Positions 53,476 to 56,721 of a stretch of 64,000 nucleotides of DNA are shown one piece after another. The notes beneath the pieces are model-generated. The model worked only from the letters and a program-made list of their open reading frames with translations. It made no database searches and was not told the origin of the DNA. The stretch is taken from positions 801,501 through 865,500 of the forward strand of contig NC_013385.1 in the NCBI RefSeq assembly GCF_000024605.1, read 5' to 3'. The stretch's first letter is position 1, and each line of letters opens with the position of its first letter. Made by a program: the position numbers and the translations under genes. Origin of the DNA: Ammonifex degensii KC4. Its GTDB lineage: Bacteria; Bacillota; Desulfotomaculia; Desulfotomaculales; Ammonificaceae.

Positions 53476-53529
53476 GCGGAGCTTCAGTAAAGCTACCAAC
53501 TTCTTAAACTTGACAGTTTGGTAGCTTTG

Positions 53530-53789
53530 GCTTGAGGCTCTGAGACTGAGGGGGCGTGCCTCTGGCCGTAAGCTGAGCCCCCGGCGACGGGGGAGGTGAG
53601 GAGTCCCCCCTACGTACCGGGGCTGCCCTCAAGGGCAGGCACCCTGGTCGGCGCTCCAGAGTCAGGCACTGCCGGTCCGCGGGGACGGAACCTGGCCCCT
53701 CGTGGGTAGTCGGTGAACACCTCGCGGGCTACCAGACGCCCCGGTACATTGTTGCGGAGCAGAATAACCCGGAAGGAGGGTGGCCTCAG
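53530..53789 (+). ncRNA. HEARO/omegaRNA-like leader of the outer IscB
   Basis: A structured GC-rich stretch without a gene lies directly before iscB. It shares an ordered set of blocks with the second leader (TACCGGGG, a GCAC-then-CTCC core, CAGTC-like and CCTGC/GCCGG blocks) and contains stems such as CTGCCCTC/GAGGGCAG (53623-53640). IscB genes are known to have such RNAs immediately upstream. Confidence 0.65.
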
Positions 53790-54476
53790 ATGGCCCCGAC
53801 GTTTGTCGGCTATCCGAAGGTGTTTGTGGTGGACGTGGAGGGCAAGCCCTTGCTGCCGTGCCACCCGGCGCGGGCGAGGAAGCTTTTAAAGTCCGGGAAG
53901 GCAGAGGTCTTACGCGGCTCCCCCTTCACCATCAAGCTGAAGCGGGTAGTAGAAAGTCCGGTGGGTTCTTTGCGAGCCAAGGTCGATGACGGCTCAAAAT
54001 GGGTGGGCATTGCGCTGGTCAACGAGTTCACCGGCGAGGTGGTCTTCCGCGGCGTCCTGGTCCAGCGCGGGGACGTGGTGCGCCTGCTCACCCTGCGGCG
54101 CGAGTACCGGAGGAACCGGCGGTACCGTGTCGTGCGGCACCGGGAGTGCCGGAACCAAAACAGGAAGCAGGTAGTTCCCTTTCCGAGCATTCGGCAGAAA
54201 AAGGAGGCAGTCTACCGCGTCCTGGCAGACCTGGCGAAGATAGCGCCAGTTTCTGGCGTAGACGTAGAGCTGGTGAGCCAGGGCGTGAAGAACCCTGCCT
54301 TGCCAGGTAGGGACGCGCGGGAAAAAGCGCTGTGCCGCGACGGCACCTGTGTCCTGTGCGGCTCCCGGAAAGACCTCCAAGTACACCACCTGGTACCGAG
54401 GTCGAAAGGCGGCACTGACACCCCAGCCAACCTGGTCGTTCTTTGCCGGGAGTGCCACAGGAAGCTCCATGCAGGT
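53790..54476 (+). pseudogene. iscB: outer IscB, N-terminal part (PLMP, RuvC-I, bridge helix, HNH)
   Basis: This is the first 229 codons of an IscB nuclease gene: PLMP-like GKPLLPCHPARARKLLKSGK, RuvC-I AKVDDGSKWVGIAL (D66/D67), arginine-rich bridge helix (YRRNRRYRVVRHRECRNQN) and HNH CVLCGSRKDLQVHHLVPRSK (H199-H200) up to CHRKLHAG. Beyond 54476 comes the inner element; a chance frame adds HRPHG and stops at 54494. The missing RuvC-III and C-terminal part lie at 56194-56673 in the same frame. Confidence 0.85.
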
Positions 54477-54499
54477 CATAGACCCCACGGCTGAAGCCG

Positions 54500-54806
54500 G
54501 GGGCTTGTCCTCCAGGTTTCGGCCGTAGGCCACGAGGCCTCGCTATGATCAGCCTCAGAGGCCTGACCCGAAGGACAAGGGGATGAAGGCCCTACGTTAC
54601 CGGGGAGAGCCAGAGTTCGCACTCCGGGATGCTCCTCCAGTCCCGAGACCCTGCAACCCGGCGGTTAAACAGCGAGCTGGGGGTGCAGCGAGCGGTGCCG
54701 CCGGGAGGAGGCCGCCCGGTAACATTGGCGAGGAGGGAGGCTGGGGAGAGTCCGCCCCGGCCCGTCACGAGCCCCGTAAGGGGCCTCCGGAAGGAGGAAA
54801 GGGAGT
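54500..54806 (+). ncRNA. HEARO/omegaRNA-like leader of the inner IscB
   Basis: A 300-base gene-free region between the element end and the inner iscB start. It contains nested stems, e.g. GAGGCCTCGC and CCTCAGAGGCC near 54534-54562, GTTACCGGGG pairing toward CCGGTAAC (54596 and 54716), and CCCCGTAAGGGGCC at 54773. The last feature is a typical hairpin close to iscB starts. The order of blocks parallels 53530-53789. Confidence 0.7.
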
Positions 54807-56186
54807 GTGGTCTTCGTACTGGACAGGAAGGGAAGGCCGCTCATGCCCTGCTCTGAGAGACGGGCGAGGAAGCTCCTGGAACAGGGCCGCGCCGTGGTGG
54901 TGCGGCTCGAGCCCTTCGTCATCCGGCTCAAAGACCGGGTGGCGGAGGAAGCTTCTCTCCAACCGCTCAGGCTCAAGATCGACCCCGGTTACGAGGTCAC
55001 CGGGATCTCCGTGGTGCGGGTGGCGGGAGGGAAAGAGGTGGTCGTCTACTTCGCCGAAGTCCACCACCGCACGGACGTACCCGGGAAGCTCCTCTCCAGG
55101 AGGCAGGCGAGGAGGAGCCGCCGTAGCCGCAAGACCAGGTACCGCGAGCCCCGCTTCGACAACCGTAGAAAACCGGAGGGCTGGCTACCGCCGAGCGCGG
55201 AAGCCCGCGTAAGCCAGGTGTTCTCGGTGGTCGGGAAGCTTGTCCGGTGGTTGCCCGTCACGGAAATCGTGGTGGAGTCGGCCAAGTTCGACACCCAGAA
55301 GCTCCAAAACCCGGAGGTCTCCGGCGTCGAGTACCAACAGGGAGAGCTCCAGGGCTACGAGGTCAGGGAGTACCTGCTGGAGAAGTACGGCCGCAGGTGC
55401 GCCTACTGCGGGAAAGAAAATGTGCCGCTGGAGGTGGACCACGTGGTCCCGAAGTCGAGGGGCGGTACCGACCGGGTGTCCAACCTGACCCTGGCCTGCC
55501 GGGAGTGCAACCAGGCCAAGGGGAACAAGCTCCCCCAGGAGTGGCTGGAAGAGTTGAAGGACTCCGGGCGGGCGGTGGACAGGAAGCGGGCGGAAAACGT
55601 ACCGAAGGTCCTGGCCCGGCTCAAGGAGCCCTTGAAGGCCGCGGCCTGCATGAACGCGACGCGGTACGTCCTGGTGGAGAGGCTCAGGGCGCTCGGCCCG
55701 CCCGTCCTCACCGCGACCACCGCCCAGACCAAGTACAACCGGGCGAGGTTTAACCTCCCCAAGACCCACTACTTCGATGCCTGTTGTGTGGGGGAGGTGT
55801 CCGGCGAGTTGGAGGTTGCCGCAGGGTATGTACAGGTCTTCCGGGCCGTGGGGCGCGGGACGAGGCGGGTGGCGAACCTCGACCGACACGGCTTTCCCAG
55901 GGGGCACCGGGCGCGGGAGAAGGTTCACTTCGGCTTCGCGACGGGCGACCTGGTGGTGGCGGAAGTGCCCAACGGGAAGTACGCTGGGAGGTACGTGGGT
56001 TACGTGGCCGTGCGGCGGAGCGGGTATTTCGACCTGAAGGACCTTTCCGGCAGGCGGGTGTGCCAGGGGATAGCCTTTCACCACTTCAAGCTCGTCCAGC
56101 GCTTCGACGGCTGGCGCTACGAGAAGTTTAAGGTTGCGGCGCTTTCCTCCCCACACCTTAAGGTGGGGGCCTCCAGCGCCGCTTAA
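54807..56186 (+). CDS. iscB: IscB RNA-guided nuclease, full length (inner element)
   Basis: The 459-residue IscB is complete: PLMP domain (GRPLMPCSERRARKLLEQGR), RuvC-I D59 (KIDPGYEVTG), bridge helix RRQARRSRRSRKTRYREPR, RuvC-II E157 (EIVVESAKFD), HNH with LEVDHVVPKSRGG (D211-H212) between CAYCG and CRECN, RuvC-III THYFDACCVG (H321, D324) and a C-terminal domain of about 120 residues. It should be a Cas9-ancestor nickase/nuclease guided by the upstream RNA. GTG at 54807 follows GGAAGGAGGAAAGGGAG. Confidence 0.93.
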   Translation: MVFVLDRKGRPLMPCSERRARKLLEQGRAVVVRLEPFVIRLKDRVAEEASLQPLRLKIDPGYEVTGISVVRVAGGKEVVVYFAEVHHRTDVPGKLLSRRQARRSRRSRKTRYREPRFDNRRKPEGWLPPSAEARVSQVFSVVGKLVRWLPVTEIVVESAKFDTQKLQNPEVSGVEYQQGELQGYEVREYLLEKYGRRCAYCGKENVPLEVDHVVPKSRGGTDRVSNLTLACRECNQAKGNKLPQEWLEELKDSGRAVDRKRAENVPKVLARLKEPLKAAACMNATRYVLVERLRALGPPVLTATTAQTKYNRARFNLPKTHYFDACCVGEVSGELEVAAGYVQVFRAVGRGTRRVANLDRHGFPRGHRAREKVHFGFATGDLVVAEVPNGKYAGRYVGYVAVRRSGYFDLKDLSGRRVCQGIAFHHFKLVQRFDGWRYEKFKVAALSSPHLKVGASSAA

Positions 56187-56193
56187 GGATGGT

Positions 56194-56673
56194 GAAGAGA
56201 GGCTGGACAGGAAGGGCAGGACCTTTGCCTGGGTGGCACACGCAGTCCTGGGCAAAGCGTACCTCCTGGCCTTGCTTTCCTGCTTCGGTGAGGTCAGGAC
56301 GTGCGAAGGCTGGCAGACGGAAGAGTGGCGGGAAGGTCTTGGCCTGGCAAAGTCACACGCAAACGACGCTTTAAGCCTCTTCCCGCCAGAAAGACCGCTT
56401 AAAATCTTCGGGCCGGAGCACCTTATTTACCCACTTCGCAGGCGCAGGTGGGAGGACAACCCCACGAAGACCTGCGAGGGAAGGAACGGTTTCCGTCACT
56501 GGGACGTGGTGCGGGCTATGAGGGCGGGGAAGGTGGTGTTTGGGTGTGTGCGGAGCCTCAAGGCGCGGGCCATGACCCTGCGGACGGCGGGGGACGGCAA
56601 CTTCGAGGTGTCTTACTCGAAAGCGGAGCTCCTGCACCGCCCGCGCGGTCCGGCTTACGTGCCGGTCTGGTAG
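56194..56673 (+). pseudogene. iscB: outer IscB, C-terminal part (RuvC-III and end domain)
   Basis: It continues the outer gene: EERLDRKGRTFAWVAHAVLG, then EGLGLAKSHANDALSLFPPE (RuvC-III; KSH-x-NDA pattern of the IscB subfamily with CxxCH..LH-type HNH), then RHWDVVRAMRAGKVVFGCVR. A frame open from 56134 makes it look like a separate gene, but its first 20 codons belong to the inner element's 3' end. Confidence 0.85.
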
Positions 56674-56721
56674 GCGCTGACAGTACTTGATAGCAGCTTA
56701 GAAGGAGGTGGAAGATTTCTT

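Follow-up and report, generated by a model that had tools for sequence, protein, structure and literature searches.

A HEARO-type IscB element nested within the iscB gene of another IscB element in Ammonifex degensii

A complete HEARO-type IscB element of 1717 bp interrupts another IscB element at its iscB gene; the host element is itself located between gmk and rpoZ in Ammonifex degensii KC4. The stretch analyzed (64,000 nucleotides, referred to herein as the window) corresponds to bases 801501-865500 of a 2.13-Mb contig, in a two-contig genome that is 99.6% complete. Both elements are of known types, and empty sites and intact copies document the pair unusually well; the nesting is real and precise, yet in line with the known rules for IscB elements. 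We consider it highly probable (roughly 0.9) that two mobile IscB (OMEGA) elements were inserted successively, each by a precise event of the Y1 type, and that the inner one disrupted the outer iscB. The inner insertion is the later of the two, since its flanks are outer coding sequence, and chance is excluded as the cause because the insert aligns from border to border, at 94% identity, with a second copy.

Results

The outer gene reads through the joint

A preliminary description of this DNA had proposed that one IscB element is nested in another and had rejoined the outer gene by removing 54477-56193. Both genes are indeed present, and excision of 54475-56191, with the start set at 54475 by comparison with other copies (GTCATAGACC), restores an outer ORF of 388 codons; the two cuts yield the same joined sequence, with GGT present at both borders. 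The two HNH types that it distinguished, CHRKLH in the outer and CNQAKGN in the inner protein, are as it stated, and the inner gene, which it took to be complete, is an ORF of 459 amino acids (54807-56186). Its span for the outer element, 53476-56700, denotes a real element, the limits of which are refined here to 53478-56703 (Table 1).

Table 1. Features of the nested elements (window positions)
Feature	Position	Strand	Basis
Outer IscB element, including the inner one	53478..56703	+	Seven copies with common borders; empty site in sister genome G001 joined at GGAG
Outer leader RNA, probable diverged omegaRNA	53478..53789	+	Six-copy alignment, 16 covarying pairs
Outer iscB, N part (PLMP, RuvC-I, RuvC-II, HNH)	53790..54474	+	PF14239, PF01844, NF040563; ORF extends to 54494
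Inner omegaRNA, predicted guide (24 nt within the outer HNH code)	54451..54474	+	Known HEARO layout; length from PMC9755519
Inner IscB (HEARO-type) element	54475..56191	+	Start common to nine copies; GTGA after the end in all readable Ammonifex copies
Inner HEARO RNA (omegaRNA scaffold)	54475..54743	+	RF02033, 86.6 bits (gathering score 83)
Inner iscB, 459 aa, RuvC and HNH motifs	54807..56186	+	Sequence-related to solved IscB structures 9k30, 7utn and 7xht
Palindrome CCCCACACCTTAAGGTGGGG close to the right end of the inner element	56149..56168	.	Sequence; retained by the copies on C2 and at 1285 kb
GTGA, inner target motif (TAM), within outer code	56192..56195	+	Same motif after five Ammonifex copies
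Outer iscB, C part (RuvC-III region and C-terminal domain)	56192..56673	+	Aligned across the joint with intact copies
GGAGG, outer target motif and Shine-Dalgarno sequence of rpoZ (start 56722)	56704..56708	+	Sequence, empty site, other copies

The N part of the outer gene, read as the ORF 53790-54494, contains RRXRR and HNH domains and alone scores 213 bits over 234 amino acids against the curated IscB model NF040563 (cut-off 175), and past the joint the C part remains in frame up to 56673. Exactly five RRXRR genes occur in the genome, three of the outer type and two of the inner type. Two of the outer-type genes are uninterrupted paralogs, at 575 kb (388 amino acids) and 1786 kb (387 amino acids), with 80-84% DNA identity and the same length through the joint; RRXRR and HNH were also detected in an intact paralog. 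Further intact homologs, with 82-87% amino acid identity to the 575-kb paralog, are found in the sister genome G001 and in genomes G067, G076 and G176, the last again encoding 388 amino acids. Intact copies of the outer iscB, for which the preliminary description had proposed a search, thus exist in this genome and four further ones, and their joint is exactly as predicted: the window reads HAG|EERLDRKG, and intact copies read HAGGATLDRRG, HAGEAALDRRG, HSGEVVSSRKG, HAGEVSLDREG and HAGDAHLDRKG, with no codon gained or lost. In none of these relatives do the two outer parts appear as independent genes or with a different joint. The idea that they are independent genes, or that the arrangement is an assembly error, can practically be dismissed: the intact homologs cross the joint with unchanged length, the paralogs in the same genome already refute it, the borders agree with independent copies, and the window lies in a large contig of a nearly complete genome.

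The closest solved relative of the outer protein is HfmIscB (PDB 9k2z), with which it aligns over residues 11-376 of 388, an alignment that takes in PLMP, RuvC-I, HNH and RuvC-III. The outer element differs from it in that the sequences are distant, the leader RNA is barely recognized by the Rfam HEARO model, and insertion occurs at GGAGG. Relatives of the outer family were not found in viral contigs, and those in plasmids are below 60% identity. The top plasmid match of the outer IscB (31%) is NZ_CP061967.1, an unannotated 21.8-kb sequence deposited as a plasmid of Klebsiella pneumoniae; the same sequence is the top plasmid match (58%) of a tnpB-type protein described below, and it is possibly misassigned.

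The outer reading frames have acquired neither a stop codon nor a frameshift since the insertion, and a recent insertion and a restorable excision are for that reason indistinguishable. It might accordingly be proposed that the inner element is an excisable intervening sequence, the precise removal of which restores the outer IscB, and that the pair is kept as a switch. The joint does give back the exact reading frame, and the open frames of both parts and pairwise dN/dS values of 0.13-0.16 between the rejoined gene and the homologs tested would fit such a switch. However, these values also cover the time before the insertion, and a restored frame proves nothing about excision, because any precise excision would restore the target. 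In addition, substitution counts along the lineage suggest, short of significance (p 0.05 and 0.19), that constraint on the N part has relaxed, and a search of 113 genomes from the order and 398 from the phylum found no second interrupted outer copy. We therefore regard an excisable switch as very improbable.

Borders and target of the outer element

Seven copies of the outer element share common borders. Each begins with GGAGCTYC and has GGAGG or GGGGG next to its right end; in the window the left end is GGAGCTTC and the right end is TTAGAA, followed by GGAGG, an equivalent placement being 53482-56707. For each of the four sites known in the genus, the sister genome has an element-free counterpart whose two sides meet at a Shine-Dalgarno motif: the gmk-rpoZ site (G001:C67), the 575-kb site (G001:C11), the 1786-kb site (G001:C34), and a site in G001:C35 that is empty at G000:C1:730612-730997. 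The counterparts of the 575-kb and C35 sites have diverged near the motif, and the exact joint is less sharp there. At gmk-rpoZ the empty site reads GGATAAATGGAGGTGGAGGATTTCTTATG, and in the window the left junction reads GGATAAGC|GGAG and the right junction |GGAGGTGGAAGATTTCTTATG. The outer element is thus mobile, with precise empty sites at four places in the genus, and the sequences around rpoZ argue that it entered at the ribosome-binding site of this gene and left that site in place.

Six of the seven copies have a start codon with an open frame no more than about 13 bases from the motif, and none is evident for the copy in G076. In the 1786-kb copy this start is a GTG that overlaps the motif, an ATG lying 32 bases further on. 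About 80 bp at G000:C1:779751-779830 resemble the outer right end alone, and may be a solo end or a remnant.

A structured leader RNA is found at the left end of the outer element. The leader (310 nt) is conserved, with covariation across six copies and a single-strand z-score of -2.3, and the 5' stem opens with the element's first base, so that a putative guide would lie in the flank, as in HEARO. The Rfam HEARO model scores 38.3 and 31.3 bits in two homologs, below the gathering score of 83, and reports no match in the window copy; the leader is accordingly taken to be a diverged RNA.

The inner element and its other copies

The inner IscB scores 414 bits against NF040563 (cut-off 175), and the HEARO RNA, above its gathering score, begins at the first inserted base. 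The start GTCATAGACC is shared by nine copies of the inner family (window included), the left flanks of which are unrelated, and GTGA stands to the right of the copies in the window, in contig C2, at 1285 kb and in contigs C34 and C23 of G001. The same borders at unrelated sites mark the element as mobile, and the junctions in the window agree both with these independent copies and with the empty outer sites. The second full-length copy (G000:C2:9331-11055, in a 27.8-kb contig) is the one that aligns border to border with the window insert. A DNA search of the plasmid collection with the inner element gave no match.

The 1285-kb copy (G000:C1:1285728-1286145) has lost almost its entire gene and retains both ends and the HEARO RNA; it lies at the end of a nusB-like gene, and the site is empty in the sister genome. 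In another genome (G024:C36:30300-35368), a HEARO RNA is followed by a Y1 transposase gene and a weakly TnpB-like ORF instead of a recognized IscB.

The inner element resembles known HEARO/IscB OMEGA elements, which combine the RF02033 RNA with a RuvC-HNH ORF (PMC9755519): the HEARO RNA is at the left end, the IscB has the PLMP-RuvC-HNH order, the guide would come from the flank, and the target motif (GTGA) is on the right. Unlike these, it is located inside another iscB gene, and its predicted guide is the code of a rival nuclease, namely a part of the outer HNH (ECHRKLHA). Insertion before ATGA or GTGA was reportedly noted in the original description of HEARO.

The preliminary description had suggested a comparison of the inner guide with the outer gene. 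The match exists, but it is inevitable and gives no sign of an aimed insertion, because the guide is the DNA directly to the left of the insertion. When the last 16 nt of the guide followed by GTGA were searched in the genome with up to three mismatches, the sole site was the left junction of the element itself, where GTGA is replaced by GTCA, which would protect the filled site. A use of the guide against the uninterrupted outer paralogs was rejected: the guide has four or five mismatches in 24 positions (2, 5, 8 and 16 from the TAM, and additionally 13 in one paralog), and the TAM position holds GGGG or GGGA. One HEARO nuclease that has been studied prefers 24-nt spacers and has a low tolerance of mismatches up to position 13 (PMC9755519), so the outer paralogs should be safe from this guide.

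Insertions of the inner family at tnpB-type elements

The C2 copy is inserted in a multicopy tnpB-type element, directly before the likely GTG start codon of its gene. This gene is weakly TnpB-like (NF040570, E 4e-5, below the cut-off) and has no Pfam match, and its relatives are annotated as TnpB-related. Six chromosomal copies of the host element are uninterrupted across TTCAG|GTGA (GAGA in one). Of the 24 positions of the C2 guide, 2-5 are mismatched with each of them, and in the two closest GTGA-bearing copies the mismatches are at positions 9 and 12. A further copy (G001:C34:31505-33232) has a second tnpB family on its right, elsewhere uninterrupted as AAGGAG|GTGAA, and a nucleotidyltransferase-like gene on its left; judged by these flanks, it is probably a recombinant of two inner copies. 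A copy of this second tnpB family, uninterrupted at AAGGAG|GTGAA, is also present in the window from 62161 onwards.

Three insertions of the inner family in the genus therefore touch OMEGA elements (the outer iscB, the C2 tnpB-type element and the tnpB in G001:C34). The genome has 40 TnpB zinc-ribbon matches, and OMEGA elements would make up about 3.5% of its length, a rough estimate that assumes 1.7 kb for each match. The chance of at least two such contacts among the six other sites is about 0.017, a post hoc figure based on few sites. One might suppose from these contacts that the inner element gains by entering rival OMEGA elements, that its guide cuts or homes into further rival copies, and that the nesting was selected rather than accidental. 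However, the captured guides misfit their would-be targets, both the outer paralogs (wrong TAM included) and the six tnpB-type copies, no direct abutment occurs in the other genomes sampled, and insertions into dispensable elements survive better anyway. We find this proposal improbable. The stronger version appears equally improbable, namely that the family colonizes rival iscB and tnpB elements above other dispensable DNA, that captured guides act on further rival copies to drive conflict or homing, and that the present mismatches are traces of that conflict. A regular position of HEARO-IscB beside tnpB is not supported outside Ammonifex: among matches from 41 genomes, none outside Ammonifex abuts a tnpB directly, in a survey whose tnpB seeds came from this genome only and could miss distant tnpB. 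Given the post hoc nature of the figure, the few sites and the lack of abutment in other sampled genomes, a preference of the inner family for rival elements is unlikely.

Discussion

The favored history of two successive insertions comprises two steps. The outer element, a member of a small IscB family that appears to insert at Shine-Dalgarno motifs (GGAG|G), first came to lie between gmk and rpoZ, and rpoZ kept its ribosome-binding site. The HEARO-type element then inserted directly before a GTGA of the outer iscB, between the HNH and RuvC-III codes, and disrupted the gene. Both insertions are precise and free of target duplication, as in transposition of the IS200/IS605 type (Y1). No Y1 transposase gene was found in 53478-56703, and six Y1_Tnp matches lie elsewhere in the genome. 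As neither element has a Y1 gene within it, both are classed as lacking their own transposase, and we infer that a Y1 enzyme acted in trans on both. The inner omegaRNA, if expressed, would draw its guide from the left flank, here the outer HNH code, and its expected role would be the known one: the rejoined, empty site would be cut, and repair from a filled copy would restore the element and may thereby retain it.

A similar arrangement is found in IS200/IS605 elements, for which a TnpB gene drive has been described (PMC11870625): insertion takes place beside a short motif without target duplication, and the guide records the insertion site, so that element-free copies become targets. That drive was demonstrated for TnpB on plasmids, whereas here it is proposed for IscB, in elements without a transposase. 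A literature search on nested IscB elements, or on IscB at Shine-Dalgarno sites, gave nothing relevant; a prior description may exist in key papers outside that search.

At this locus an encounter between two RNA-guided mobile elements has left a clean natural trace, from which the order of insertion, the exact borders and the empty sites can all be recovered. It indicates that the sequence encoding the active site of one RNA-guided nuclease can supply the guide of an IscB element, and it offers a tractable case for asking whether RNA-guided elements restrain each other. The points most worth following are the repeated nesting in the genus and the target rule of the outer family; insertion at a Shine-Dalgarno sequence, after which the gene downstream still has its ribosome-binding site, would explain how such elements enter operons with little harm.
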